A DNA stretch of 32,244 bases, taken from the NCBI GenBank assembly GCA_903821875.1, contig CAIJMU010000024.1, positions 1 to 32,244 on the forward strand, given 5' to 3'. Shown piece after piece: positions 4,235 to 19,903 of this stretch. Origin of the DNA: an uncultured Spirochaetota bacterium (GTDB taxonomy: Bacteria > Spirochaetota > Spirochaetia > Treponematales > Rectinemataceae). Made by a program: the position numbers and the translations under genes. Position 1 is the stretch's first letter. Every line of letters begins with the position of its first letter. Below the pieces are notes generated by a model. It was not told the origin of the DNA and ran no database searches. It was given only the letters and a program-made list of their open reading frames with translations.

Positions 4235-6121
4235 CTATACGCGGGCTGAGTAAAGGTCATCCCGGAAGCTGATGTCGCAGGAAAAGCCCGTGTCGGTGGC
4301 GAAGGTCACCCTGCCCCGGAGCTGGTCCTGGATGAGGCCCACGACAGTCATGAGGCCGAGGCCCTCGGAGGCAAGGGGATCAGAGCCCGCGGGCATCCCC
4401 GCGCCACGGTCGGAGACGCGGAGCCTGATGAGGCCGTCCGTAGCCTTGGTGAGCCGGACGTTGATGAGGCCTACCCGGCCGCCCGGATAGGCGTGGGCGT
4501 ACACATTCGCGATGAGCTCGGTGAGGATGAGTCCGCAGGGCATGGCCGAATCGATGAGGACGGTGACCTTGTCGGCTACCATGGTGATGGAAAGGGGACG
4601 GGCAGAGCGGCCATATCGCTTGGCAACGAGGTCCGCGATCTTGAAGACGCACTCGTCGAGCTTGATGAGACAGAGGTCACCGGACTCGTAGAGCATGCCC
4701 TGGACGAGGGACATCGAGGCAATCCGCAATTGGACATCGGCGACCGCTGCCTGGAGGGGCTCGTCGCCGGACGGCCCCGAATGCAGGCTGAGATAGGACG
4801 AAACCAGCCTCATGTTGCCGATGCCGCGATGGTAGAGCTCCCGGGTCAGGGCTTCCTTTTCCGCGCTCTTTTGCTCGAGGTCGAGCACGAGGGCCTCAGA
4901 GGCCTCGAAGGCCTTCGTGAACTTCCTGACCAGGGACATCGACTGGAAGAACACGAAGCCCAGGAGTCCCCAGCCCGAGAGGACGGGCGTCGACAGCGCC
5001 AGGAGGGGCTTCAAGGTATCGTTCACTCCCGTCGCGAACAGGACGAGGAAGCCGCCGAAAAACAGCGCGGAGCCGGGTACGCGTCGCATGAGGGCCCGCG
5101 AAAGCACCCAGAGCCCGAGCGATCCGGAAGCCACGAAATAAAACTGGAATAGCGAGAATGCCTGCACGAAGATCCACGCGGGGAGGAGGAGGATGGCCAG
5201 GGTAGCCCCACCCGCCCCCACGATGATCCAGTAACGGAACCAGCGGGGGGCCGCCTCCCGCATCAGGTCGGCGAGGAAGAGGCCGATGATGAGGGCGCTT
5301 CCCATGAAGGTCGAGTAGGCGATGCGCATCTGGGCGTCCCAGGAGAGGCCGGGCAGCAGTTCGAGGAGGATGGAACCGCCATAGTAGGCCTGCCGGAGGG
5401 CGAGGAGGAAACAGGCGAGGGCGAACCACAGGGATTCCCGGTCGCTGCGCCTGAGCGCAAATAGGCATAAATGGTACAATCCGGTGAAGATGAGACTGCC
5501 CATCAGGATGCAGTCGGCTATCCTGGCAAGCTCGCGCTCGGACAGGAGGTCCCGGAGCCCCCCGAGGCGGGGCGGCTCGAGGATGCCGGCGACGGGATCG
5601 TGGAGGTTGGCGATGGCGAGGGTGAGGGTGTTGGAACCGGGCCGGGGGGGGAGGGACACAAGGCCTGGCTGCTTGTCCTCGACCACATGGGAAAGGTCGG
5701 AAGACCAGGAGCCGGAAGACCAGAGTACGGCTCCGTTCCAGCTGAGTTCGCAGGCAGAGTTGACCGGTGGCAGGGCGATGGCCAGGCCACCCTCCGGCAG
5801 GCGCTTTCCGAAATCGGGCAGGATCACTTCAAGCTCGTAGACCGCCGCAGCCCTGGCCTTTCCCGTAAAAGTCGTCCAGTTCGAGGGCACCGGCAGGTGG
5901 CGGTGGGTGCCCTCCGGATCGCCGGGCCAGCTGAAACTCCAGGTTCCCGAGAGCGTCACCGGAGCCCTGCCGTCCCAGGCCCTGAGATCCAGGAACCCTT
6001 CCCGTGGCATCGGGCTTTCCGCGGCAAGGCCCAGGGTCAGGGCCGCCGACAGGACTGCCAGCACAATCCACCGGCCACTTCCTGTCCCGGGTCCACGGCT
6101 CCCCGCGTCATAGAGCATCAT
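4235..6121 (-). CDS. 7TMR-DISM sensor histidine kinase (HisKA_2/HWE-like), second of a tandem pair
   Basis: Membrane sensor kinase of about 628 residues. An N-terminal signal/anchor (residues 18-35) precedes an exported jelly-roll-like sensor domain (45-190, SGTWSFSWPGD, PVNSACELSWNG), about seven membrane helices (205-400), a short coiled coil, a HisKA_2-type dimer domain with the phosphoacceptor His near residue 431 in ELYHRGIGNM, and a C-terminal HATPase (LTELIANVYAHAYPGG, SDRGAGMP, GLGLMTV). The usual H-box Asn pair is replaced by Ile-Gly, unlike its neighbour. The ATG at 6121 overlaps the stop of the upstream kinase by one base (TGATG); a TTG one codon earlier (6124) is possible. No response regulator is adjacent; the partner is unknown. 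Confidence 0.88.
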   Translation of the reverse strand: MMLYDAGSRGPGTGSGRWIVLAVLSAALTLGLAAESPMPREGFLDLRAWDGRAPVTLSGTWSFSWPGDPEGTHRHLPVPSNWTTFTGKARAAAVYELEVILPDFGKRLPEGGLAIALPPVNSACELSWNGAVLWSSGSWSSDLSHVVEDKQPGLVSLPPRPGSNTLTLAIANLHDPVAGILEPPRLGGLRDLLSERELARIADCILMGSLIFTGLYHLCLFALRRSDRESLWFALACFLLALRQAYYGGSILLELLPGLSWDAQMRIAYSTFMGSALIIGLFLADLMREAAPRWFRYWIIVGAGGATLAILLLPAWIFVQAFSLFQFYFVASGSLGLWVLSRALMRRVPGSALFFGGFLVLFATGVNDTLKPLLALSTPVLSGWGLLGFVFFQSMSLVRKFTKAFEASEALVLDLEQKSAEKEALTRELYHRGIGNMRLVSSYLSLHSGPSGDEPLQAAVADVQLRIASMSLVQGMLYESGDLCLIKLDECVFKIADLVAKRYGRSARPLSITMVADKVTVLIDSAMPCGLILTELIANVYAHAYPGGRVGLINVRLTKATDGLIRLRVSDRGAGMPAGSDPLASEGLGLMTVVGLIQDQLRGRVTFATDTGFSCDISFRDDLYSARV

Positions 6122-7986
6122 CAAGCGCGCAGCCTCGGCCTGTTGCTGTCGTCGCGGAAGCGGACTTCGCAGGCAAAGCCCCCAATTGTGGTAAACTCTA
6201 TTTCGCCGTGGAGCTGGTCGCGCGCGAGTCCGAGCACGGTCTGGAGGCCGAGGCCCCCCGTCTTTTCCGGGTCGAAGCCCTCGGCCACGCCGACGCCCCT
6301 GTCGGCCACCCGGAGGCTGATGAGCCCCTCCTCCGATTTCCGCAGCCTGACCTGGATCTCCCCCTCACGGCTTCCCGGAAAGGCGTGGGCGTAGGCGTTA
6401 GACATGAGTTCTGCCAGGATGAGGCCGCAGGGTATGGCCGAGTCGATGAGAACAGGCATGCGTTCCGAGTCCACAGTGACCGTCAAGGGGCAGTCTTCCC
6501 GCTTGTGGTTCCGGGCGACGATGCCGGCAACTGTGCCGACAAAATCGTCGAGATGTATCCGGCTGAGATCGCCCAGCTGGTAGAGCATGCGCTGCACGAC
6601 GGCCATCGAGCTGATCCTGTTCTGGATATCCTGCACCACCTTGGGAAAGCTGCTGCCTGCGACCTTCATCGCCCGGAAATCCATGAGGGCAGCGACCACC
6701 TGCATATTGTTGTTGCTGCGATGGTAGAGCTCCCTGAGCAGGCCCTGCTTTTCCGTGTTCATGCGCTCGAGCCTCACGGCATTGGCCTCCGAACTCGCCA
6801 GCGAGGCCGTAAAGCTCCGGATGAGCGACAGGGACTGGAAGAGGATGAAGCCGAGGAAACCGACGGACACGAGGTAGGGCGTAGGCAGGGAAAGGAGCGT
6901 CTTGACGCTGTCGTGTACCGAGGTTACCAGAAGGGCGAGGTAGCCGGAAAGGAAAAACTCTGCCCCCGAAATCCCTGCGGACAGGGAACGGAGGACGATC
7001 CAGAGCCCGATGAGGCCTGTTGCTGCAAAGTAGGCCAGCAAGATGAAAGAACCATGAACAAAGAGGCTGGCAGGAAGCAGGAGGGCAGAGAGGGTGTAAC
7101 CGCCCGCTCCGATGTAGAGCCAGGGCAGGAACCATCGGGGGACAGAGGGGCGCATGAGTCCTTCGAGGAAGAGCCCGACCAGGAGGATCCCCCCGGCGCG
7201 GCTGCCATAGGCTATCCTCATCTGGAGTTCCCAGTGGATCCACGGAAGGTTGTCGAGGAGGATATAGCCGCCATAGTCGAACTGCCTGAGCGCCAGGAGG
7301 AAACAGAGGAGGGAAAACCAGATCGAGCTGCGATCCTTGGTCCGGAAGAGGTAGAGCCCGAGGTGGTAGAGACCCATGATGAGGAGGCTGCCCGCCAGGA
7401 AGCCGTCCAGCATGCGGCTGCGCTCCCGCTCGCCCACGAGGGTCTGGAGGCTGCCGAGCCTCGGCGCGGCAAGTATGCCCGCAATCGGGTCGTGGAGGTT
7501 GGCTACGCGAAGGTCGAGGTGGTTGATCCCGGGGCGCGGTGGCAGCGACACAAGACCGGGGTGCACATCCTCGACAACCTGGGAGAGGTCGGCCGATACC
7601 CTCCCCGAACGCCACAGCAGCTCTCCGTTCCAAAGGAGTTCACAGGCCGAGTTCACCGGAGGCACTGCGATGGCCAAGCCTCCGGGCAGGGCCTCTGGGG
7701 AAAAATCCGGCAGGGCGATATCGAGGTGGTAGGTCCCCGAGCCGCGCGAGGAAGCGGTGGTTCCCGTCCAGTTCCCGGGCACATGGATGTCCCGGGGAAG
7801 GCCCGCGGCATCGGCATCCCACGACAATAGCCACATTCCCGAGAGATCGACTGCAGCTCCACCCTTCCACTGGGTCAGATCGACGACACCAGGACGAAGG
7901 TCGGGAAAGCCGGCCTGGGCAAGGAGACAGAGCAGGAGCACCGGGAGGGGCCTGGGGAGGGCGGGAAGGAAGGAATGTTTTCTCAT
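6121..7986 (-). CDS. 7TMR-DISM sensor histidine kinase (HisKA_2/HWE-like), first of a tandem pair
   Basis: 621 residues, colinear with the next kinase over its whole length. It has a signal peptide (1-28), an exported sensor domain (35-180, VNSACELLWNGELLW), seven membrane helices (about 195-390), HisKA_2 with His422 in ELYHRSNNNMQV, and an HATPase (LAELMSNAYAHAFPGS, ADRGVGV, GLGLQTV). HWE/HisKA_2 kinases normally phosphorylate stand-alone or output receivers; none lies beside this pair. The shared block structure (LHDPIAGIL / LHDPVAGIL, LLALRQ) shows descent from one duplicated gene. A promoter is proposed at 8066-8093. The start at 7986 has only a weak Shine-Dalgarno (GGGA). Confidence 0.88.
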   Translation of the reverse strand: MRKHSFLPALPRPLPVLLLCLLAQAGFPDLRPGVVDLTQWKGGAAVDLSGMWLLSWDADAAGLPRDIHVPGNWTGTTASSRGSGTYHLDIALPDFSPEALPGGLAIAVPPVNSACELLWNGELLWRSGRVSADLSQVVEDVHPGLVSLPPRPGINHLDLRVANLHDPIAGILAAPRLGSLQTLVGERERSRMLDGFLAGSLLIMGLYHLGLYLFRTKDRSSIWFSLLCFLLALRQFDYGGYILLDNLPWIHWELQMRIAYGSRAGGILLVGLFLEGLMRPSVPRWFLPWLYIGAGGYTLSALLLPASLFVHGSFILLAYFAATGLIGLWIVLRSLSAGISGAEFFLSGYLALLVTSVHDSVKTLLSLPTPYLVSVGFLGFILFQSLSLIRSFTASLASSEANAVRLERMNTEKQGLLRELYHRSNNNMQVVAALMDFRAMKVAGSSFPKVVQDIQNRISSMAVVQRMLYQLGDLSRIHLDDFVGTVAGIVARNHKREDCPLTVTVDSERMPVLIDSAIPCGLILAELMSNAYAHAFPGSREGEIQVRLRKSEEGLISLRVADRGVGVAEGFDPEKTGGLGLQTVLGLARDQLHGEIEFTTIGGFACEVRFRDDSNRPRLRA

Positions 7987-8144: not shown

Positions 8145-10592
8145 TCAGAGCTGAAGGTAGCGGCCGATGGATGAGGTAGCGGTCGACAGGTGGCAGAAAA
8201 GCTCTGCTATGGCGGGATCATCGCAGCCGAGGGGCTCCCCCTCGGCAACGCGCTGCTCGAGGCGCTTCGAGGAAGCCTCGACGGCTGGTATGCCGAGGTT
8301 CGCGGAGGAGCCCTTGAGCCCGTGGAGGAGGCGCCGCGCCTCGGTAAAGTTGCCCTCCTCCAGGGCCGCGCGCAGGGCCGGGGGGAAGCCCACAAAGCTC
8401 GTCGCGAAGAGGCCCAGCATTTCGGCGAGGAGGGGCCGGTTGCCTCCCAACAGGAGGAGTCCGCCTTCCTCGTCGAGTCCCTCAAATTCCCCTATCCTGG
8501 ACGGCGCGACAGCTGCTGGTGGGGGGAGTCCGGGAGAAGGCCCTGTATCCCGCTCCGCCTCGTTTCTTCTGGCCATGCCACTGAGGTATTTGTCGAGCAC
8601 GAACAAGAGACGGACCATGTCGATCGGTTTGGTGATGACATCGTCCATGCCCTCGGCCAAGAAGCGCTCGATGTCGCTTTTCATGGCGTGGGCAGTCAGG
8701 GCGATGATCACTCCCTGGGACGACCGGGAACGGCGATCCGTGCCGGCGGCCTCGGCCCGCGCCTTCCTGATGCGCTTCATCGCTTCCACGCCGTCAATGC
8801 CAGGGAGGTTCACATCCATCAGTATCAGGTCAAAGTGCCGCGCCGAAGCGACAGATACGGCTTCCTCTCCGGTGACCGCAAAGCTCGCCTCGAAGCCATG
8901 GGATTCGAGCATGGCCTTGATGAGCTTGCGGTTGACCGGGTTGTCCTCGACGACCAGAATCCTGGCTTCGCAGCTGGCCGTGGGTTCTTCCCTCGTCGCC
9001 TTTTCCCCGACCGGGGTCTTGCTCCTCCGCTCGGGGCTCCTCCCGGGCAGGGCAATAAGGAAGCGACTGCCCTTGCCTTCCTCGCTCGAGACCTCGATGC
9101 GGCCACCATGGAGTTCGACGAGTTGCCTGGTTATAGGGAGCCCGAGTCCGGTCCCTTGAAGGCTCGCATCCGGCTGCCTGACCTGCTCGAAGAGCTCGAA
9201 GATCCGCCCGAGATTCCCTGCCGCAATTCCGATTCCCTGGTCCCAGACCTCAAGGAGGGCCATATCCCCCAGGCCCTGGGCCCGGAGGCCGACGGACCGG
9301 CCTTCTGGGGTAAACTTGATGGCGTTGGAAAGGAGGTTGTAGAGCATCTGGCGCACACGGATCTCGTCGGCATCGAGGATGCCGATGTCGGGAGCGACCT
9401 CGAGTTCGATCCTGACGCCCTTTTTTCTGGAAGCTGGCCTCATCGTCTCGACGAGCTTCTCGAGCAGGGGGAGGAGGTCGAAGGGCTTTCGGTGAAGGTC
9501 TATCTTGCCAGCCTCGATCTTGGAGAGGTCAAGGATGTCGCTGATCATGTCCATGAGGTGGTCGCCGCTCGTCTTGATATCCTGCACCCAGGTGCGCTGC
9601 TCCTCGCTCAGGGTCGAGGATCCAGTGGCCAGGAGCTGGCTGAAGCCTAAGATGGAGTTGAGCGGAGTGCGGAGCTCGTGGCTCATCGAGGCCAGGAAGT
9701 CACTCTTGGCCTGGTTCGCGGCCAGGGCGGCCTTCTCAGCCTTGATCATCGCCTCTTGTGAAGCCACACGCTCGTCCATATCGCTCAGGGTGACGAGGAA
9801 GAGCGGGGAGGCGCCATCGGTCTGGAGGGCCCCGATCTCGATGAAGACCCATTTCGGCCCGGCTTTTCCGGACGCGATGCGGGTGGCAAAGGAGGGGACC
9901 TCCCCCTCGGCCAGCAGGGTCTCGAGCTGCATCCGTACGCGGCTCCTGTCCTCTTCCACGACGAGGGAATCCAGGGGCTTCCCGACCAGGCTTGAGCGAT
10001 CGCTGGCCAGGTAGCCTCCCAGCGTCTCGTTGGCCTCGGAGATGATGCCTGAGCCATCGAGGGTCAGGTAGCCGACGGGTGCACGGTCGAAGAGCTCCCG
10101 GTAGCGCTTCTGCGAAGCGAAGAGCTTTGCCTCGCTGTCGAGGAGCTCCCGGTTCCTTGCGGCGAGCCTCTCCTTTTGCTCCTCCGACTCCTTGACCAGA
10201 CGTTTGTCTGTCCTCTCGAGTTCGAGGCGTTTTATCGCTGTCAGGATGGTGGCGCGGAGAAGGACGGGGCTGATGGGCTTCAGCAGGTAGCCGAAGGGAT
10301 CGGCAGACTGGGCCCGCCTCATGGTATCGTCGTCGGCGTGGACTGTCAGGAAAAGTACGGGCACTCCCTGCTCCCTTCGGAGCCGGATCGCCGTCTCGAT
10401 GCCATCCATCTCGCCCTTGAGTCCAATGTCCATGATCGCGAGGTCGGCAGTGCTGTGCGCCAGGGCCCTGAGAGCCACTTCGCCACGGGCTTCGCTGCCC
10501 AGCACCCTGCAGCCCATATCCTTGAGCATGTGCTCAAGGCGCTGCGCCGACAGGATGTCATCTTCTACGATAAAAACTTGCAACTGTTCCAT
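8145..10592 (-). CDS. Hybrid histidine kinase: REC-PAS-HisKA-HATPase-REC-HPt
   Basis: 815 residues with no membrane segment, so probably cytoplasmic. Domains in order: receiver (1-125, phosphoacceptor Asp55 in IMDIGLKG), PAS (155-275, FDRAPVGYLTLDGSG), HisKA (His305 in SMSHELRTPLNSILG), HATPase (NLLSNAIKFTPEG, DQGIGI, GTGLGL), receiver (543-670, Asp593 in LMDVNLPGIDG) and HPt (700-815, His757 in LHGLKGSSANLG). All phosphotransfer residues are present, so it can run a complete internal His-Asp-His relay and accept phosphate at its N-terminal receiver. It follows cheR by 31 bp and is the last gene of the chemosensory operon. CheA could be the donor to its first receiver; this is inference. Confidence 0.93.
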   Translation of the reverse strand: MEQLQVFIVEDDILSAQRLEHMLKDMGCRVLGSEARGEVALRALAHSTADLAIMDIGLKGEMDGIETAIRLRREQGVPVLFLTVHADDDTMRRAQSADPFGYLLKPISPVLLRATILTAIKRLELERTDKRLVKESEEQKERLAARNRELLDSEAKLFASQKRYRELFDRAPVGYLTLDGSGIISEANETLGGYLASDRSSLVGKPLDSLVVEEDRSRVRMQLETLLAEGEVPSFATRIASGKAGPKWVFIEIGALQTDGASPLFLVTLSDMDERVASQEAMIKAEKAALAANQAKSDFLASMSHELRTPLNSILGFSQLLATGSSTLSEEQRTWVQDIKTSGDHLMDMISDILDLSKIEAGKIDLHRKPFDLLPLLEKLVETMRPASRKKGVRIELEVAPDIGILDADEIRVRQMLYNLLSNAIKFTPEGRSVGLRAQGLGDMALLEVWDQGIGIAAGNLGRIFELFEQVRQPDASLQGTGLGLPITRQLVELHGGRIEVSSEEGKGSRFLIALPGRSPERRSKTPVGEKATREEPTASCEARILVVEDNPVNRKLIKAMLESHGFEASFAVTGEEAVSVASARHFDLILMDVNLPGIDGVEAMKRIRKARAEAAGTDRRSRSSQGVIIALTAHAMKSDIERFLAEGMDDVITKPIDMVRLLFVLDKYLSGMARRNEAERDTGPSPGLPPPAAVAPSRIGEFEGLDEEGGLLLLGGNRPLLAEMLGLFATSFVGFPPALRAALEEGNFTEARRLLHGLKGSSANLGIPAVEASSKRLEQRVAEGEPLGCDDPAIAELFCHLSTATSSIGRYLQL

Positions 10593-10623: not shown

Positions 10624-11469
10624 TCAGGCGGGCTTTTTCCTATAATACACTGCCCGAAGGTGGCGCATAGCTTCGAAACCCGTAGCCGTCCCAAGAAGCG
10701 ATTCGGTGGAGCCGATGATCAAGGCGCCATCCTTCTCGAGGACCCGTTCGAAGCGACCGAAAAGCTTCCGCTTGTCGTCCTCGGTGAAATATATTGCCAC
10801 GTTGCGGCAGAAGATCACGTCAAAATAGCCGAAGGATGCAAAATCCTCGAAGAGGTTCCAGCGCTTGAAGGTGGCAAAGGCACGGAGATCGTCGCGGATT
10901 CGATATCCTCCGTTCTCGACGATGAAGTGACGCTGGAGGAGCTCTGGAGGCATCCCCCGGACAATGTCGGCGGAGGCATAGAAACCCTTGCTCGCCTTGG
11001 CTATGGCGGAGTCAGAGATGTCTGTCGCAAGCAGCCGGATCGAATAGGCGGAGAGGTCGCCGAGAAGTTCCTTCAGCGCGATGAGGATCGAGTAGACCTC
11101 CTGCCCCGTGGAACATGCGGCGCTCCAGATGCGGAGCGCAACCTTGGCCTTCGGGCCGGCCAGCTTCCGCCTGGCGTCGATGAGCTCGGGCACGATCTTG
11201 AACTTGAGCATCTCGAAGGGCGAGGCATCGCGGAAAAAAGAGGTCTCCTGTGTCGTTATGCGGTCGATCACCCTGCGCGCGAGGGCCCCGGAGGCGTCGG
11301 ATTTGATGCGGTAGTAGAGTTCCGAATAACCCTTCAGCCCGAGTTCGCGCACGAGGGGCTCGAGGCGCGTCTCGATGAGGTAGCCCTTGGATGCGTCCAA
11401 CGCGATGCCGGTCAGGTCCCTGACCAGCTTCGCGTAGACAGTGAATTCCTCGGTGGAAAGTGCAGCCAT
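10624..11469 (-). CDS. cheR: Chemoreceptor methyltransferase CheR
   Basis: 281 residues, the usual CheR length. The N-terminal helical domain (1-85) contains RITTQETSFFRDASPFE. The SAM-binding domain carries WSAACSTGQEVYS, the LLATDIS strand, FCRNVAIYF and a GSTES segment near the C-terminus. CheR transfers methyl groups from S-adenosylmethionine to receptor glutamates. There is no TPR extension and no pentapeptide tether on the neighbouring MCP. It follows cheB after 2 nt and would oppose that esterase on the operon's MCP. Some normally strong positions differ (Ala for Gly in SAACSTG, Gln for Glu in TGQE), which does not by itself imply inactivity. Confidence 0.95.
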   Translation of the reverse strand: MAALSTEEFTVYAKLVRDLTGIALDASKGYLIETRLEPLVRELGLKGYSELYYRIKSDASGALARRVIDRITTQETSFFRDASPFEMLKFKIVPELIDARRKLAGPKAKVALRIWSAACSTGQEVYSILIALKELLGDLSAYSIRLLATDISDSAIAKASKGFYASADIVRGMPPELLQRHFIVENGGYRIRDDLRAFATFKRWNLFEDFASFGYFDVIFCRNVAIYFTEDDKRKLFGRFERVLEKDGALIIGSTESLLGTATGFEAMRHLRAVYYRKKPA

Positions 11470-11471
11470 GC

Positions 11472-12590
11472 CTAACGGATCCTTGCCATGATCTCGCCGG
11501 CGAGGCGGGACAGGGGCAGGACGTCATCTGCGAAACCCAGGGCAACTGTCGCCCCCGGCATGCCCCAGACGACCGAGCTCTCCTCGTCCTGCACGAGGAT
11601 CTCCCCCCCTGCCTTGCGGATGTCCCCCGCTCCCTTGGCTCCGTCGTTGCCCATGCCCGTCATGACGAGGGCGAGGGCACGGCCGTAGTACTGGCGCGCT
11701 ACCGAGCGGAAAAGGTAGTCCACGCTCGGCCTGCAGTTGTTCTCAGGGGGATCATCGGTGACACGGAGGACCTTGGTGATGGCGTCGGCGCCGAGATCCA
11801 CACGCATATGCCTGCCACCGGGGGCGAGGTATATACGGCCGGGCCTCAGCACTTCGCCGTTCTCGGCTTCCTTGACGGGGAGCTTGCCGCGATGGGTCAG
11901 GCTGTTGGCAAGGGAGGCAGTGAACAGGGCAGGCATGTGCTGGACTATGAGGATCGGCACGGGGATGTCGGCGGGGAGGGCGGGCACCAGTTCGAGGAGG
12001 GCGGCAGGCCCGCCGGTAGAAATACCAATTGCCACAATTTCGCAGGCTTGCCTGGCTGTCGGCCTTCGGGCCGGCGGCGCGCCTGCCGCCCCGCCCGGGG
12101 TGCCCGCGGCCATGCCCGCTGCAGGACGCGCGCCGAGGGGGAGGCTTGCCAGCTCCGGCCTTGCCTGTCCTCCCCCCAGTATTTTCCGTATCTCGCTGCG
12201 GCGGGCGAAGTTCTCGATCCTCGCACGAAGCTCGGCCTGGAAGTCTGCCCGCGAGATGGCTGCTCCGTCGGGCTTGGCGATGGCGTCCATGGCGCCGAGC
12301 TCGATGGCGCGCAGCGAGAGGTCGGCGCCCCGCGTCGTCAGCGCAGAGACCATGAGAAAGTTCCCCCCCAGCCCTGCCGCCTTCATGTGCTCGAGAACCT
12401 CTATCCCGTTCATCTCGGGCATTTCTACGTCGAGGGTCACCAGGTCGGGCTTGAGCATCGCGATGCGCGAAAGCGCTATCTTCCCGTTCGGCGCCGTGCC
12501 GACAACCCGCACGCCGGGAACCGATTCCGCGATGTCGGAAACGAGCTTCCGGTAGACGATCGTGTCATCGACGACAAGAATGGAAATCAT
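11472..12590 (-). CDS. cheB: Chemoreceptor methylesterase/deamidase CheB
   Basis: 372 residues. The receiver domain is at 1-125 with phosphoacceptor Asp54 (TLDVEMPEMNG). An Ala/Pro/Gly-rich linker follows at about 140-182, then the methylesterase domain with the catalytic triad Ser191 (GISTGGP), His218 (VQHMP) and Asp316 (TGMGNDGAKG). It removes methyl groups from receptor glutamates when phosphorylated by CheA, giving adaptation. The ATG at 12590 overlaps the stop of cheW in an ATGA junction and cheR starts 2 nt after its stop, so the pair is co-translated with the receptor and coupling protein. Confidence 0.96.
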   Translation of the reverse strand: MISILVVDDTIVYRKLVSDIAESVPGVRVVGTAPNGKIALSRIAMLKPDLVTLDVEMPEMNGIEVLEHMKAAGLGGNFLMVSALTTRGADLSLRAIELGAMDAIAKPDGAAISRADFQAELRARIENFARRSEIRKILGGGQARPELASLPLGARPAAGMAAGTPGGAAGAPPARRPTARQACEIVAIGISTGGPAALLELVPALPADIPVPILIVQHMPALFTASLANSLTHRGKLPVKEAENGEVLRPGRIYLAPGGRHMRVDLGADAITKVLRVTDDPPENNCRPSVDYLFRSVARQYYGRALALVMTGMGNDGAKGAGDIRKAGGEILVQDEESSVVWGMPGATVALGFADDVLPLSRLAGEIMARIR

Positions 12591-13084
12591 GCGATGGACA
12601 GGCTGCGCTTGGGATCGAGGATGGCGACGAGCATGTCGTCCCTCCGTAGCACGCCGACAAAGAGATCGGGGTCGGCGCCACGGAGATCGGCCCGCATCGG
12701 CTGGATCTCGGAGGCATCGGCTTCGATCACGTCCCGCAGCGCGGGCACCTGCACGCCGATCGCCTCGCCCCCGGCCTCCTCGATGACCAGGAGACGGGGG
12801 TCATGGGGCTCTGTCCGTGGCAGGCCGAGCTTTACCTCGAGGTCGATGACAGTGATGATGCGGCCGCGCAGGTTGACGACACCCATCACGTAGGGCGCCG
12901 CTCCGTAGGAACGAGTGATGCGGGGCAGCCTGATGACTTCCCCGACCGAGCGCGCGTCGTAGGCCATGAAGGAGTTGCCCGCAGCGAAGACGACGAGCAT
13001 GACGCTCCCCGATCCGGACGCCCCGGAACTATCCACCCCCACCTTTCCGTTGGCAGGCCTCCCGCCCGCATTCTCCGCGCTCAT
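12587..13084 (-). CDS. cheW: Chemosensory coupling protein CheW
   Basis: 165 residues. A Gly/Ser-rich N-terminal extension of about 26 residues precedes a single CheW domain (about 28-160) with the typical segments [28 protein letters not shown] and [15 protein letters not shown]. CheW links the MCP tip to CheA. The start ATG overlaps the MCP stop (ATGA) and its stop overlaps the cheB start, placing it in the translationally coupled core of the operon. It is one of three CheW-type domains encoded here, the other two being inside CheA. Confidence 0.95.
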
Positions 13085-14769
13085 ATCTTGAAGCGCTCAA
13101 CGAGACGCCTGAGCCCTTCGGAGAGCCTCGAAAGCTCTTCGGAGGACATCAGGACCTGCGCGCTCGAGGTGGAGATCTCTCCGGCGGCCTGGTTTACCTC
13201 GGTGATGTCCTGGGTCATGTTGTTGACAGCCTTCGAGGCCTCGGCCACGTTGCGGTTGGCGTCCTCGACACCGCGGGAAGCCTGGGCCACATTGGTCGCG
13301 ATGTCCCGGGTCACGGAGGACTGTTCCTCGATGGCAGCCGCAATTCCCGCGACGATCTCGTTCACCTGGCGGATGACCTCGGCCACCGAGCCGATGTCCT
13401 GCACGGCTGTGCTGGAAGAAGACTGGATGCCCTCGATGCGGGCCTTGATGTCCTCGGTGGCGGCGGCGGTCTGCCGGGCGAGTTCCTTGATCTCGTTGGC
13501 GACAACGGCGAAACCCTTGCCGGCCGCCCCCGCGCGTGCAGCCTCGATGGTCGCGTTGAGGGCCAGGAGGTTGGTCTGCGAGGAGATGGCGCTGATGGTT
13601 TCGGTCACCTTGCCGATCTCGCGTGCAGCCGTACCAAGTGTGTCCATCGTTCCCGAAACGCGCTTGGCGGAGTCGACAGCCTCGGCGGTGACCTTGCGCG
13701 CCCGCTCCGCGTTCATGGCTATCTCGCCGATCGTCGAGGTCATCTCCTCCGAGGCTGTGGCGACGGTGGAGAGGTTGACGGTCGTCTCTTCCATGGCTGC
13801 GGAAACGCCACTCATGTTGGTGCTCGTCTGCTCCGAGGCTGCGGCGACGCCGTTCGCCCTCGCGCTCGTGGATTCCGCGCCCATCGTCATCTGCTTGGAG
13901 ATGGAGGAGAGTTCGGTAGCCGCCGACGAGAGCGTCTGCACTCCCTCGTGTATCTTGCCGAACATGTCGCGGAGATTGGAAGAGGCTCCGTTCAAGGCCT
14001 CCGCCAGGAGGCCGACATCGTCTTTCTGGCTCACATCGATCTGCTTGGTCAGGTCACCGTCGGCCACCGCCTTCGCAAAGTCGACGCCCTTCCCCAGGGG
14101 CTTGACGATCATATTCGTCACAACCAGGCCGAGCACGATGGAGATGATTACGCCCAGGAGGATGATCACGATTATGATGACCAGGCTCGAGTTGGCGAGT
14201 TTCAGGTTGTCGGCTGCCGAGCTGGCCCCGAAGGCGAGATTGAAGTCGATGATGGCATTGATCTGACTGATGACGGGGGTGGCTACCTTGGCGACCACAT
14301 CGAGGAAGAAAAGCCTTGCGGCAAGCTGCCTGGCGGAAAAGGCGTCCTTCCCATTGCCGACGTAGATCGACTGGTACTCGGTCACCTTCTCGAGCCAGAG
14401 CTTGTAGGAGTCCTGGAAGGTGGCGAAGTTCTTCCTGTCCTCATCGTTCAGGAAGGACTTCTGGTAGGTTTCGCTGGCCTTCGCGACGAGCTGGAGGCTC
14501 GGATCTATCCTGGCCTTCGCGGCAAGCATGTCCTTGTCGTTCTCCGATATAAGCATGTCGCGTGTGGCCACTCGGATGTTCCCGTATTCCCGGAGGACGT
14601 CCACCATGATATCTATAGGCACTGTGCTGTTGTTGTAGGCGTAGCGATAGTTCGCGTCGATGGTCTTTATGTAGTAGATGCCGAAGCCGCCTATGACGCT
14701 GGCTATCAACGCCACGGCGATGAAGCTGCCCAGAAGCTTGGTCCGTATGCGCATGTCCGCGAATCTCAT
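13081..14769 (-). CDS. Methyl-accepting chemotaxis protein, transmembrane, 4-helix-bundle sensor
   Basis: 562 residues. Membrane segment 1 is at about 12-34, followed by a mostly helical periplasmic domain of the 4HB_MCP kind (35-195), membrane segment 2 (about 196-218), HAMP (about 218-272), and a long cytoplasmic coiled-coil signalling domain with the conserved tip [20 protein letters not shown] and a nearby [14 protein letters not shown]. It ends in RRLVERFKI without a CheR/CheB-binding pentapeptide. The ligand is unknown. It overlaps cheA and cheW by ATGA junctions, so it is the dedicated receptor of this system, although other MCPs could also join the array. Confidence 0.95.
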
Positions 14770-17700
14770 GAGATGCTCCTTGTATCGTCCGTTCCGTCCC
14801 TGCCGGCCAATATAGCCGCCACGCTCGCAAGGAGGGCGTCCTTGTCCAGTTTAACGAGGTATTCGCGGGCGCCGGCCGCGCGCAGGACCTTCTCGTCATC
14901 ATCGGAGGCCAGGGATGTGAGGGCTATGACGGGAAGCCCCGGAAATTCCTCGGCCAGCTTCTCGGTAAGCCCGCGGCCGTCGAGCCTCGGCATCTCGACG
15001 TCGGTCACCACGAGGGCGACTTCCTGTCCGAGCTCACGCACGAGGGCGAGGGCCTCGAGGCCATCCCTGCCTGCCCTGGCGCGGTAGCCGCCCTCGGTGA
15101 GGATCTCCAGTACCATGTTCCTGAAAAAATCGGAATCCTCGGCGAGCACCAGAAGGGGCGCGGTCGGGTCCTCGGTGGGAGGTTCCGATGCGGGCGCAGC
15201 ATCCCGAGCCTCCGCCTGGGACCCTGTCGTGCCAGGCCTGGCCCCCGTGACAGCGAACCACTCAGGCTTGAGCACGGAGAGGGCTCCCACCGGATCGATG
15301 ACCACCGTGGTCTGTCCCTGGATGACCGCCGTTCCAGAAACCCCGGCCTTGCGCATCGAACGTTCGTCGAGCACTGCCTCCGCCGAAACGGAGTCCACCG
15401 GCGGCGAGGCCAGGAAGCCGAAGTGGAAGCCCGCCGTGTGGCAGAGCACGCAGGCCTGGGCGCTATCGGCGTCCAGGGGCGAAAGCCCCGTGAAGGAACC
15501 CACGGAAAACACCGGCAGGGACAGGCCACCCACCCTGAGGAACAAATCCTTGCCAATTGGGTCTATATCGCCCTTTGTCACGCGGACAACGCGCTCGACC
15601 GCCTCGAGGGGCATCGCGCACTGCTCCGTGCTGCCGTTCCTGAACAATAGCCAGCCCTGGGCTGCGTCGGGGATTTCCTCGGGCTCTTCCTCGGCAGCGT
15701 GCTCGTCACCCACGCCGGTCAGGCCCGCCTTCAGGGCGAGACCGACCGGGTCGATGATGAGGGCGACCGCCCCGTCGCCGAGGATGGTGGCACCCGAATA
15801 CTCCTTGAGCGACTGGAGGTGACGGCCGAGGGGCTTCACCACGATTTCGGTGGTGTCGAAGAGCGCGTCGACGATGACGCCGTAGCGGAAGCCCGAGGAA
15901 CGCACCACGATGATGCGGTAGTCGCTCTCCACGCGGAAGCGGCGCTCTTCCTGGCTCCGGTCCGCGGCATGGCTTGTTTTTCCAAGCACGGCCGCCATCG
16001 CCTCGGAGGAGGGCGAGCGCCTGTCCTCGACACGATCGCGGCGGTCGGGAAGGTTTTCACCCGTAGCGGGGTCCTCGAAACTCCGTTCCATTCCGATCGC
16101 ATCGGCAAGGCGCACGAGGGGCAGGACCTCGCCCCGGAGCACCAGGACAGCGCGGTCGCCAACCCGCTCGATACGACGCTGCACATCGCCGGCGCGCACG
16201 TGGAGGAGCTCCGCGGCTGCTGCCTGGGGCAGGGCGAAACGCTCCTCGCCCACACCAGCCAGGAGGGCGGGGATAACCGACAGCGTGAGCGGCAATGTGA
16301 TGCGGACCTTCGTTCCCGAGCCGGGCGCCGAGTCGATCTCGATGCGGCCGCCGAGGCGGTCCACATTGGCCTTGACCACGTCCATGCCCACGCCGCGCCC
16401 CGAGAGGTCGGAGACCTTTGTCGCCGTCGACAGGCCTGGCAGTGTTATGAGGTAGAGCTTTTCCTTCGCCGACATCAGCGACACGCGGTCCTTGGCTACC
16501 AGGCCCATGGTCACGGCCTTCGCGGCGATGGCTTCCGCGTTGATACCCTTGCCGTCATCCTCCACGAGGACGAGGATCTGGCCCGCGACATGGGCTGCAG
16601 ACAGGGAGATCGTACCCCGCCTCGACTTGCCCGCCGCCACGCGAACCGCGGGATCCTCGATGCCGTGGTCACAGGCATTCCGCACGAGGTGGGTCAGGGG
16701 ATCGGAGAGGGTCTCGAGAAGGCTCCTGTCCAGTTCGGTGTCCTTGCCGGTGATACGGAGATCGATGTCCTTGCCCAGGTCGCGGGCGAGGTCGCGCACC
16801 GTTCGCTGGAAACGCGCGAAGAGGTTGGAGGCAGGCTGCATCCGCGAGCGCATTACAGCGGCCTGGATATTTGCCGTCACCGTGTTGAGGCGCTGGGCAG
16901 CTGCCAGGGTCGCGGCCGGGTTGGCCCTCCTCATGACATCCGACAATTCGTTCCTGACCAGCACGAGTTCGCCGGAGAGGTTCATCAGGTCGTCGAGCAC
17001 GTTGACGGAGACGCGGACGGTCTCGGTTTCGCTTCCCGTGGGAGCACCGGCACCTGCCTTGGCTGGGGCCAAGGAGGCCTCGGCCGCAGGAGCCGGCGCC
17101 GGGGCTGCCTCGGCCGTCCCGCTCCGCCCCGCCTGGACAGGGGCCGCCACCGGGGCGGCGCCCGCGTTTGAAGCCGCCACAAGGGGCGAAACCGGGGCGG
17201 CGCTCACCACGACGGGTGCCGCCGCAGGGCGGACTTCCGGAATCCTGAGCATCGTGATGCCGATCAGGGGAAGTTCGAAGCGGAGCGACACTTCGTGGAG
17301 GCTCAGGCCTGCGGCATAGAGAACGAAATACGGCACATCGTCGCCGAAGGTCTCGCTATCGAGGGTACCGACCGACAGGTAGTCCAGGGCGCTGTCCAGG
17401 ATTTCGCCAGAGTCGAGGAGGGCATGAATGACTGCCAACGGCGATTTCCCGAGGCGGTGCACGTCATGCACGAGGTCAAAGCGGAGAAGAAACAGCGACT
17501 TGTCCTGCTCCATCAAGCGTTCGACCTCGGCTTCCTCGGCTTCGAGTTCGCGGCTCGAACCGGGGGCGGCGAACTTCAGGATCTTCGGACGCTCGCTGGG
17601 CCCCTGGGCATAGGCGGCTGCAAGGCCGATCAGGCCGACCAGTTCGTCGGCGATATCAGCCTGCTCCGATTCCTCGGGCACATCGATGAGAGCCGACAGC

Positions 17701-18002
17701 CGGTCGAAGCCGCGGAGAAGTATGGTCACCACCTCGGGGTTCGGCGTCATCTTCCCGGTCCTGACATGCTCAAGGACATTCTCAAGCTTGTGGGCGAGTT
17801 CCTTGATCACCTTGAAATCGAAGAAGCCTGCTCCGCCCTTGATGGAATGCGCCGCGCGGAAAATCTTGTTGATGAGGGCATCGTCGCGTGAGACTCCCTG
17901 ACGCTCCAGTTCGACAAGGTCCTCTTCGATCGAGGCCAGATGCTCCCTGGACTCCTGGATGTACGATTGTACCAGTTCCTGGTCGTATTCCACCTTCGCC
18001 AC
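14766..18002 (-). CDS. cheA: CheA histidine kinase with two CheW-like domains and a C-terminal receiver
   Basis: 1078 residues, well above the usual 650-750. Domains: HPt/P1 (1-105, His52 in [11 protein letters not shown]), a P2-like region (about 165-255), an Ala/Pro-rich linker (256-325), P3 dimerisation (about 328-395), P4 kinase ([31 protein letters not shown]; about 400-570), P5 CheW-like (575-760, with an acidic/basic insertion at about 640-695), a second CheW-like domain (about 782-925), and a receiver (949-1065, Asp about 1001 in [12 protein letters not shown], Lys in YLVKLDKD). All catalytic elements are present. The start is a GTG three nt after the upstream stop. With no cheY in the operon, the fused receiver may serve as output or phosphate sink. 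Confidence 0.95.
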
Positions 18003-18005
18003 CGC

Positions 18006-18713
18006 CTAGCCGAGCTTCAGATGGCGGTCGAGGCGCATCATCTTGAAAAGGCCCACCAGGTCCTCGTTGGCGCCGGTCACCCGGAGTGAGCGCCCCTGGG
18101 CGACAAGGCTGTTGGCAGCCGCAATGAGGAGTCCCAGTCCCTTCGAGTCGATCATCCTCACCGCCGACAGGTCGATGGTGAACTCTCCCTGGCTGGCCGC
18201 CACGAGACTGCGGAGTTCCTCCTTCACGGCGGGAACGCTGGTCGCCACGATGTCAGCCCTCGGGTTCCAGCTCCCGGGGCCTGTGTTGTCCTGCATTGCC
18301 TGGTCCTCCCCGATGACGAATTCTGCGATGAATTTCCGTCCGCCATCCTCATAGTGATAGGTATCCGAATATTCCGAGATGAGGTGGATGCCGTTCCCGG
18401 AAGTTCCCGCCTCGCGGGAGAGTTCCCGAGAAAGCTCGACCTCTGGATCGAATCCGCAGCCAGCATCCTCCACCGAGAGCAAGAGCCTTCCCCCAGCCAG
18501 GGACAGCGTCACGTGCACGATCCTGGAGGGATCGAGGCCACAGCCGTGCTCGATCGAGTTCTGGATCGCTTCGCGCGCTACGAGCTCGATGGCAAAGCGC
18601 CGCTCCGTAACCCCGATCGCTGTGAGTCGCTGGTGGAGAAGCGCAATGAACTGCTTGACCGAGGCGTCCTCTGCGGAGAGCCCCAGATCAAGGAGGCTCA
18701 GGTCGGCCATCAT
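18006..18713 (-). CDS. RsbW-like serine kinase fused to RsbV-like STAS domain
   Basis: 235 residues. Residues 15-137 form a GHKL ATPase of the anti-sigma/RsbW type (N box EAIQNSIEHG, G1 VEDAGCGFDP, G2 SGNGIHLI). Residues about 150-235 form a STAS domain of the anti-anti-sigma type with the phosphorylatable serine at Ser190 (MIDSKGLGLL). Kinase and its usual substrate are therefore on one polypeptide. The ATGATG start (18713 or 18710) overlaps the stop of the PP2C gene, and cheA begins 3 nt downstream. The natural eraser of Ser190 phosphate is the REC-PP2C protein encoded just upstream. No sigma factor is adjacent, so the final target is unknown. Confidence 0.9.
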   Translation of the reverse strand: MMADLSLLDLGLSAEDASVKQFIALLHQRLTAIGVTERRFAIELVAREAIQNSIEHGCGLDPSRIVHVTLSLAGGRLLLSVEDAGCGFDPEVELSRELSREAGTSGNGIHLISEYSDTYHYEDGGRKFIAEFVIGEDQAMQDNTGPGSWNPRADIVATSVPAVKEELRSLVAASQGEFTIDLSAVRMIDSKGLGLLIAAANSLVAQGRSLRVTGANEDLVGLFKMMRLDRHLKLG

Positions 18714-19846
18714 GAGTCTATAGCCATCAGGAGGCGGTCATCGCCGACCGGCCCTGCCGGAAGTATGGAGCTGCGCACCGCGGCGAGGGCCTCATCCCGG
18801 GCCGTGGCGGAGGAAGCCGATACCGCGCGCTCGAGGCGCCCGAGCCCTGCGCTCCAGGATTGCCCGCTGTGGAAGTCCTCGAGCACCCCGTCTGTGTAGA
18901 GCCAGTAGCGGTCCCCTTCCTCGAGATGGAAGCTGCCCATCTGGAAGTGCGGTGCCTCGAAGGCTCCCAGGATGTCCCCCTCGGCCCTGAGGCTCCGGCT
19001 CTCGCCGCCCTTTGACACGGCCAAGGCCGGGAAATGCCCGGCACAGGCAAAGGAACCAGTGTCAGAAAGCCGGTTCAGGATGAGATAGAAAGCCGTGACG
19101 TGCTGCCCGTCATTGAGATTTCGCCTGAGCGCACGGTTCATGCTGTACATCGTCTCGCCTGCGGTGTTGAGCACCGAGGCGTTTTCCCGGAACAGGGCCT
19201 TGAGTACTGAGGCCTGGAAGGCCGACTCGATGCCATGGCCAGAAATGTCCGCCACAAGGTAGCCGTGGATGCCAGGGCTCAGCTCCACGATGTCGTACTG
19301 GTCCCCCCCAGCCTCCTCTGCGGCTTCGAAGAAGACCGAGCACTTTGCTGCCGGAAGGGCCTCGGCGTTGGTCAGGAAGGACTTGTGGGCGTCGCTCAGG
19401 GATCGCAGGCGCTCGGATTGCAAAGCTGCCAACTGGAGGGCCTGACGCGCCAGCTTGAGGTGGATCTTTACCCGGGCGACCAGTTCCTCGGCACTGAAGG
19501 GCTTCTGGACAAAATCGACGGCCCCGATCGATAGCCCCCGGATCCGGCTCTTCACGTCCTCGAGGCTCGTCACGAAGATGATCGGGCGCTCGGACAGGGT
19601 GGTAGTGGCGATGATGCGCTCGCAGAGCGAGAATCCGTCTCCGTCAGGGAGGATCACGTCGAGGAGGAGGAGGTCAGGCAGCAGTTCCACCGCCATGGTA
19701 TACCCCTCCGCGACGGTGCCCGCAATCCGCGAGATAAAGCCGTTGACCGACAGGATATGGGCCATTGTACTCGCCACCACCGGGGAATCGTCGACTATGA
19801 GGATAAGTGGCTGTTCTCTCGGGACGGCAAGGTTGCCAAATTCCAC
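18710..19846 (-). CDS. Receiver-PP2C (RsbU/SpoIIE-type) phosphatase, first gene of the chemosensory operon
   Basis: About 378 residues: a receiver near the N-terminus (VDDSPVV; phosphoacceptor Asp in LLLLDVILPDGDG; Lys in VQKPFSAEE), a short coiled coil, then a PP2C-type phosphatase with metal-binding acidic residues (EEAGGDQYD, ADISGHG, YTDGVLED, VGDDRL). It should dephosphorylate a STAS-domain serine when its receiver is phosphorylated. I place the start at the GTG at 19846, which has AAGGGGG just upstream. The ATG at 19876 and TTG at 19903 are in frame but lie inside the proposed promoter -10 and -35 boxes. Its stop overlaps the kinase-STAS gene start. Confidence 0.88.
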   Translation of the reverse strand: MEFGNLAVPREQPLILIVDDSPVVASTMAHILSVNGFISRIAGTVAEGYTMAVELLPDLLLLDVILPDGDGFSLCERIIATTTLSERPIIFVTSLEDVKSRIRGLSIGAVDFVQKPFSAEELVARVKIHLKLARQALQLAALQSERLRSLSDAHKSFLTNAEALPAAKCSVFFEAAEEAGGDQYDIVELSPGIHGYLVADISGHGIESAFQASVLKALFRENASVLNTAGETMYSMNRALRRNLNDGQHVTAFYLILNRLSDTGSFACAGHFPALAVSKGGESRSLRAEGDILGAFEAPHFQMGSFHLEEGDRYWLYTDGVLEDFHSGQSWSAGLGRLERAVSASSATARDEALAAVRSSILPAGPVGDDRLLMAIDS

Positions 19847-19874
19847 AAGGCCCCCTTGTTGCTGTGAGTAATCC

Positions 19875-19903
19875 ATTCTCGCAAATAAGCGGCATTCTGT
19901 CAA
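19875..19903 (-). promoter_or_regulatory. Predicted promoter of the eight-gene chemosensory/partner-switch operon
   Basis: Minus-strand TTGACA (complement of 19898-19903), a 17-bp spacer, and GAGAAT (complement of 19875-19880). Transcription would start near 19868, upstream of the GTG at 19846 and its Shine-Dalgarno AAGGGGG (complement of 19851-19857). Confidence 0.55.

Follow-up and report, generated by a model that had tools for sequence, protein, structure and literature searches.

Organization of the locus

The window (the whole stretch of 32,244 nucleotides analysed here) carries on its minus strand a gene that joins a kinase domain to a STAS domain and belongs to a chemosensory operon. 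The features considered in this work are as follows.

18710–19903, minus strand: REC-PP2C (SpoIIE-type) phosphatase gene, overlapping the fused gene by 4 nt (Pfam)
18006–18713, minus strand: fused kinase–STAS gene, 235 amino acids (open reading frame list and Pfam)
18333–18677, minus strand: RsbW/SpoIIAB-type GHKL kinase domain, residues 13–127, with Glu48 and Asn52 intact
18304–18311, minus strand: Shine–Dalgarno-like sequence GGGGAGGA, 7 nt before ATG140, duplex dG -10.8
18294–18296, minus strand: in-frame ATG (Met140) at the domain junction, within the disordered linker; candidate start of a free 96-amino-acid STAS protein
18027–18251, minus strand: STAS_2 domain (RsbV/SpoIIAA-type), residues 155–229 (Pfam, model and fold match)
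18144–18146, minus strand: codon of Ser190, the expected phosphorylation site (sequence)
14766–18002, minus strand: CheA, with Hpt, dimerization, HATPase and CheW-like regions and a C-terminal REC (Pfam)
13081–14769, minus strand: methyl-accepting chemotaxis protein (MCP), with 4HB, HAMP and MCP signal domains (Pfam)
12587–13084, minus strand: CheW (Pfam)
11472–12590, minus strand: CheB (Pfam)
10624–11469, minus strand: CheR

Read along the minus strand, the order is REC-PP2C, kinase–STAS, CheA, MCP, CheW, CheB and CheR. The last five occur together, as expected of a chemosensory (che) gene cluster, and the three components of a partner-switching set are also present: a kinase, a STAS domain and an adjacent PP2C/SpoIIE-type phosphatase, which adjoins the pair in relatives too. 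The first-pass annotation had correctly linked the fused protein to the REC-PP2C. It had also seen no sigma factor nearby, and the window proteins covered by our Pfam scan include none; the co-encoded cognate sigma factor that would accompany control of the RsbW/SpoIIAB type is therefore lacking from that set, although a target may lie at a distance. Directly downstream of CheR lies a hybrid histidine kinase gene (8145–10592, minus strand; PAS, HisKA, HATPase, two REC stretches and Hpt), whose product might serve the REC-PP2C as a second phosphodonor. Two neighbouring 7TMR-DISM histidine kinases with HisKA_2 domains (4235–7986, minus strand) possibly result from a tandem duplication.

The genome to which the window belongs (4.68 Mb in 193 contigs, 97% complete) contains two more CheA-type loci, as well as several more SpoIIE/STAS/HATPase_c_2 loci (L237–L241, on contigs C72, C127, C76, C124 and C9), so such cassettes are common in this organism. 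Two of these additional loci look like PP2C–kinase fusions, as judged from a shared open-frame length, and others are separate genes.

The fused kinase–STAS protein

The proposal that a kinase and a STAS domain lie on one polypeptide is confirmed by Pfam, by AlphaFold and by fold matches, at the coordinates first given and on a strand that had not been stated and that is the minus strand. On the 235-amino-acid open reading frame, HATPase_c_2 (residues 13–127, E 1.1e-16) and STAS_2 (residues 155–229, E 4.4e-13) both score above the curated cut-off. Glu46 and Asn50 of SpoIIAB align with Glu48 and Asn52, and the kinase Glu, the Asn and the glycines of the G1 and G2 motifs are invariant in the alignment of family kinases (9/9), so that this GHKL domain of the RsbW/SpoIIAB type has its catalytic Glu and its Mg-binding Asn. 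Ser190, described from the outset as intact, is the serine of 'MIDSKGLG', the position that holds the phosphorylated serine in SpoIIAA and RsbV; the Asp-Ser motif is invariant in 10 of 10 STAS proteins, and the fused protein has a phosphorylatable serine after the conserved Asp.

The AlphaFold2 model of the full fused protein, built from a 16-row alignment, resolves two domains with confidence (mean pLDDT 90.6; pTM 0.62), joined by a disordered linker at residues 137–144 (pLDDT below 50); with this pTM it gives no confident arrangement of the kinase relative to the STAS domain. The model matches SpoIIAB (1th8, VIA Z 18.1), the RsbW domain of Rv1364c (3ke6, Z 15.2) and the STAS protein TM1442 (Z 14.2). 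The STAS part (18027–18296, minus strand) is short ahead of its first helix compared with RsbV and SpoIIAA, the model showing only two-residue strands there.

Fused and split relatives

Spirochaetota and Desulfobacterota repeatedly carry a module that consists of a REC-PP2C, a kinase, a STAS protein and an Hpt-bearing protein or CheA, in which kinase and STAS are either split or fused. The pair is preceded by a REC-PP2C and/or followed by an Hpt-bearing protein in G001, L092, G087, G005, G058 and L096, and the same context is found in L097, L107, G586, G519, G483, G481 and others; several genomes have a full CheA with a REC domain as the Hpt protein, and Desulfovibrio-like ones a shorter protein. 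Fused genes are present in G001 (same genus as the window), L092 (the Treponema sp. SZUA-426 MAG) and G087, and a search of Desulfobacterota, the phylum of the Desulfobacterales MAG L097, yielded those of G481, G737, G519, G483 and G446. The genes are split in G005 (same family), G058, L095, L096, L097, L107, G586 and others. On a 28-row IQ-TREE phylogeny, parsimony counts at least five changes between the fused and split states, and the fused trio that includes the window is sister to the split G005 with a support of 100/99.

In G481, one of the genomes that the Desulfobacterota search had yielded, the Hpt protein encoded after the fused gene (L245:6201–7319, plus strand) has an Hpt domain at residues 9–108 and a STAS_2 domain at its end (residues 283–360); Hpt and STAS are thus also joined there. 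In the fused proteins L214, L215 and L222 (of G519, G483 and G446), which have no linker Met, DSVSLS replaces DSxGLG; the genes of G519 and G483 still lie between REC-PP2C and CheA.

The domain junction and a candidate internal start

In the split sister G005 the end of the kinase gene reads GGAGGGagccaggcATGA and the STAS start overlaps the kinase stop (ATGA overlap), while the window reads GGGGAGGAccaggcaATG, in frame, at the matching place; the two junctions are one base apart. From this comparison we infer that a small indel erased the frame break and left the ribosome-binding site and the start codon in place. The fusion thus looks like read-through of two old neighbour genes with the start signal of the second one retained. 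Since the fused junction has no stop codon, coupled re-initiation is lost.

Split STAS proteins start at a Met that aligns with Met140, and a fold of its own is predicted for the 96-amino-acid piece that starts there (pLDDT 85). An in-frame Met occurs at the exact domain junction in six of the nine fused homologues, each time behind a strong Shine–Dalgarno-like sequence (duplex dG -10.8 in the window's genome, -10.3 in G001, -8.3 in L092, -8.1 in G087, -10.8 in G737 and -12.1 in G481); the linker is otherwise variable among fused genes, yet these two elements are kept in six diverged ones. By Shine–Dalgarno strength the junction ATG ranks second among the 125 internal ATGs of the window operon, and the sequence ahead of the gene's first codon is far weaker (-1.8 only, versus -10.8). 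In a count that covers the genes of the studied operons other than G737, which also form the only background, a dG of -8 or lower is found at 7 of 175 internal Mets, five of the seven being junction Mets; away from the junction it is found at 2 of 170. Comparing 6/6 junction Mets with 2/170 other Mets gives a Fisher p of 7e-10, or 4e-7 when the spirochaete trio is counted once (four lineages), values that assume independence and a threshold of -8 picked after the junction values had been seen. When synonymous codons were shuffled, with the residues before the junction fixed, an equal strength was often reached (P 0.14, 0.32, 0.55 and 0.06, not significant), and this test by itself therefore does not establish selection on the junction nucleotides. 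Moreover, the linker Met is absent from three closely related fused proteins among the nine (G519, G483 and G446), and the REC-PP2C/CheA operon context, checked in the first two, is retained despite this; a free STAS is therefore not required everywhere.

Because the conserved junction Met carries a strong Shine–Dalgarno-like sequence, initiation inside the fused gene at Met140 is likely, and both a kinase–STAS fusion and a free STAS are probably made from it. The earlier description of the two domains as covalently linked may be incomplete, since the junction Met and its Shine–Dalgarno-like sequence suggest a free STAS as well.

Proposed working of the switch

In partner switching, a kinase phosphorylates a serine of a STAS protein, a PP2C phosphatase reverses the reaction, and which partner is bound depends on whether the serine is phosphorylated. 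We propose, with a probability of roughly 0.58, that the locus is the output stage of the chemosensory operon, in which overlapping partner-switch genes have become one frame that gives both the fusion and a free STAS. By analogy, the mechanism is most likely a partner switch similar to HptB/HsbR/HsbA, placed under a chemosensory CheA. Signalling through the receptor, CheW and CheA would cause the CheA Hpt domain to phosphorylate the REC domain of the REC-PP2C; the activated phosphatase would take the phosphate off Ser190, and the kinase, using Glu48, Asn52 and ATP, would restore it. Which partner the STAS domain binds would then depend on its phosphorylation, as it does for HsbA. Since the adjacent Hpt sits in CheA, chemoreceptor signals probably set Ser190 phosphorylation, and membership of the genes in such an operon, a point that the first-pass annotation had not used, suggests the input of the switch. 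The products would be the full-length kinase–STAS protein of 235 amino acids and, via Met140 behind its Shine–Dalgarno-like sequence, the free STAS of 96 amino acids; with two products, an exchangeable antagonist would remain available. That, in a family of partner switches tied to chemosensory systems, repeated fusion of kinase and antagonist genes has retained the ribosome-binding site and start of the antagonist, fusion and free antagonist being made at a set ratio, is to us an even bet; if true, one antagonist is held in cis and another is free to exchange.

It is possible, although we think it rather unlikely, that the fused form is the sole product and that switching takes place in cis or from dimer to dimer; the STAS domain would then shield the face of the kinase as long as it is unphosphorylated. 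Rv1364c does act as a single chain that autophosphorylates its own antagonist domain (PMC7693655), three fused relatives lack the linker Met, and the result of the synonymous shuffling does not demand selection on the Shine–Dalgarno-like sequence. Retention of the junction Met and of this strong sequence in six diverged fused genes with variable linkers argues the other way, as does a model in which the domains have no confident arrangement (pTM 0.62). The at least five interchanges of fused and split states in an unchanged gene neighbourhood would also fit a neutral fusion, in which a frame break was lost between genes whose products bind each other and kinase and STAS act in trans as in split relatives; we consider this improbable, as the window's genus and L092 have both kept the fusion across about 46% divergence, and the possibly retained internal starts suggest a role for a free antagonist.

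Phosphorylation is not part of the action of some GHKL relatives, and the kinase activity considered here is predicted from sequence, so the HATPase domain might be an ATP-dependent binding module only, an RsbT-like activator or inhibitor and not a serine kinase of the STAS domain. The invariance of the kinase Glu, Asn and glycine motifs in nine relatives and of the STAS Asp-Ser in ten, together with the presence of a PP2C near the pair in every locus examined, makes this very improbable. Finally, the single base that separates the window from the split G005 junction could raise the suspicion of an assembly or frameshift artefact joining two genes in a MAG. We rejected this explanation and consider its probability negligible, because G001 and L092 carry the same open fusion at 53–54% identity, the in-frame join being thus common to three diverged genomes and present in other lineages besides.

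Comparison with known systems

Contrary to the starting premise, known systems do not always keep kinase and antagonist apart: the fusion recurs in this family, and Rv1364c of Mycobacterium tuberculosis has a PP2C, a GHKL kinase and an antagonist on one chain, the antagonist domain being autophosphorylated and reportedly also autodephosphorylated (PMC7693655). The protein studied here resembles Rv1364c in joining kinase and antagonist on one polypeptide, and the kinase folds match. It differs from it in its candidate internal start and in its phosphatase: Rv1364c has a sensor and the PP2C on the same chain, whereas here the PP2C is a separate open reading frame, bears a REC domain and lies in the che operon, which sets this locus apart from single-chain switches of the Rv1364c type. 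RsbW3 of M. smegmatis was considered as another kinase–STAS fusion and rejected, because what is described for it is an N-terminal extension only.

In the HptB–HsbR–HsbA system, an Hpt protein and a REC-PP2C drive a switch in which phosphorylated HsbA pairs with HsbR and the unphosphorylated form with FlgM (PMC6482189). We propose here the chain of control, from Hpt through REC-PP2C to a STAS antagonist, that is found in this system of Pseudomonas aeruginosa and in CrsR/CrsA of Shewanella (PMC6482189). However, HsbR unites REC, PP2C and kinase in one polypeptide and the STAS protein is free, whereas here the kinase sits on the STAS chain; the locus would therefore work like the HsbR type without being a member of it. 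The adjacent Hpt is also, unlike HptB, part of CheA in a chemosensory cluster. The RsbU/RsbV/RsbW and SpoIIE/SpoIIAA/SpoIIAB systems of Bacillus have the same three domain types, with SpoIIAB the matching kinase fold, but consist of separate proteins and have a sigma factor as target, whereas none is seen near the gene here.

CheA-L and CheA-S of enteric bacteria are a known case of one frame that yields, by internal initiation, a longer and a shorter product. The short form CheA-S is functionally unrelated, and internal initiation in the present case is a prediction.

Several features set this locus apart from known systems: just two domains are fused and the REC-PP2C is a separate protein of a che operon, the fused state has been gained or lost repeatedly, and the start of the STAS gene is retained. 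Our open-access literature search on partner switching with chemosensory, CheA or STAS terms found nothing on point, and no paper linking chemosensory arrays to serine-phosphorylation partner switching via an adjacent Hpt and REC-PP2C, a link that the model would establish. The locus also offers a testable case of a partner-exchange switch that survives fusion of the kinase to its substrate, for which the split and fused relatives are natural controls. Among proteins of other architecture, the Leptospira response regulator LvrC, which has a GHKL domain (PDB 9qih), matches the kinase domain through its residues 134–295 (Z 16.4); LvrC is a receiver-type protein, and its aligned part shows no STAS domain.
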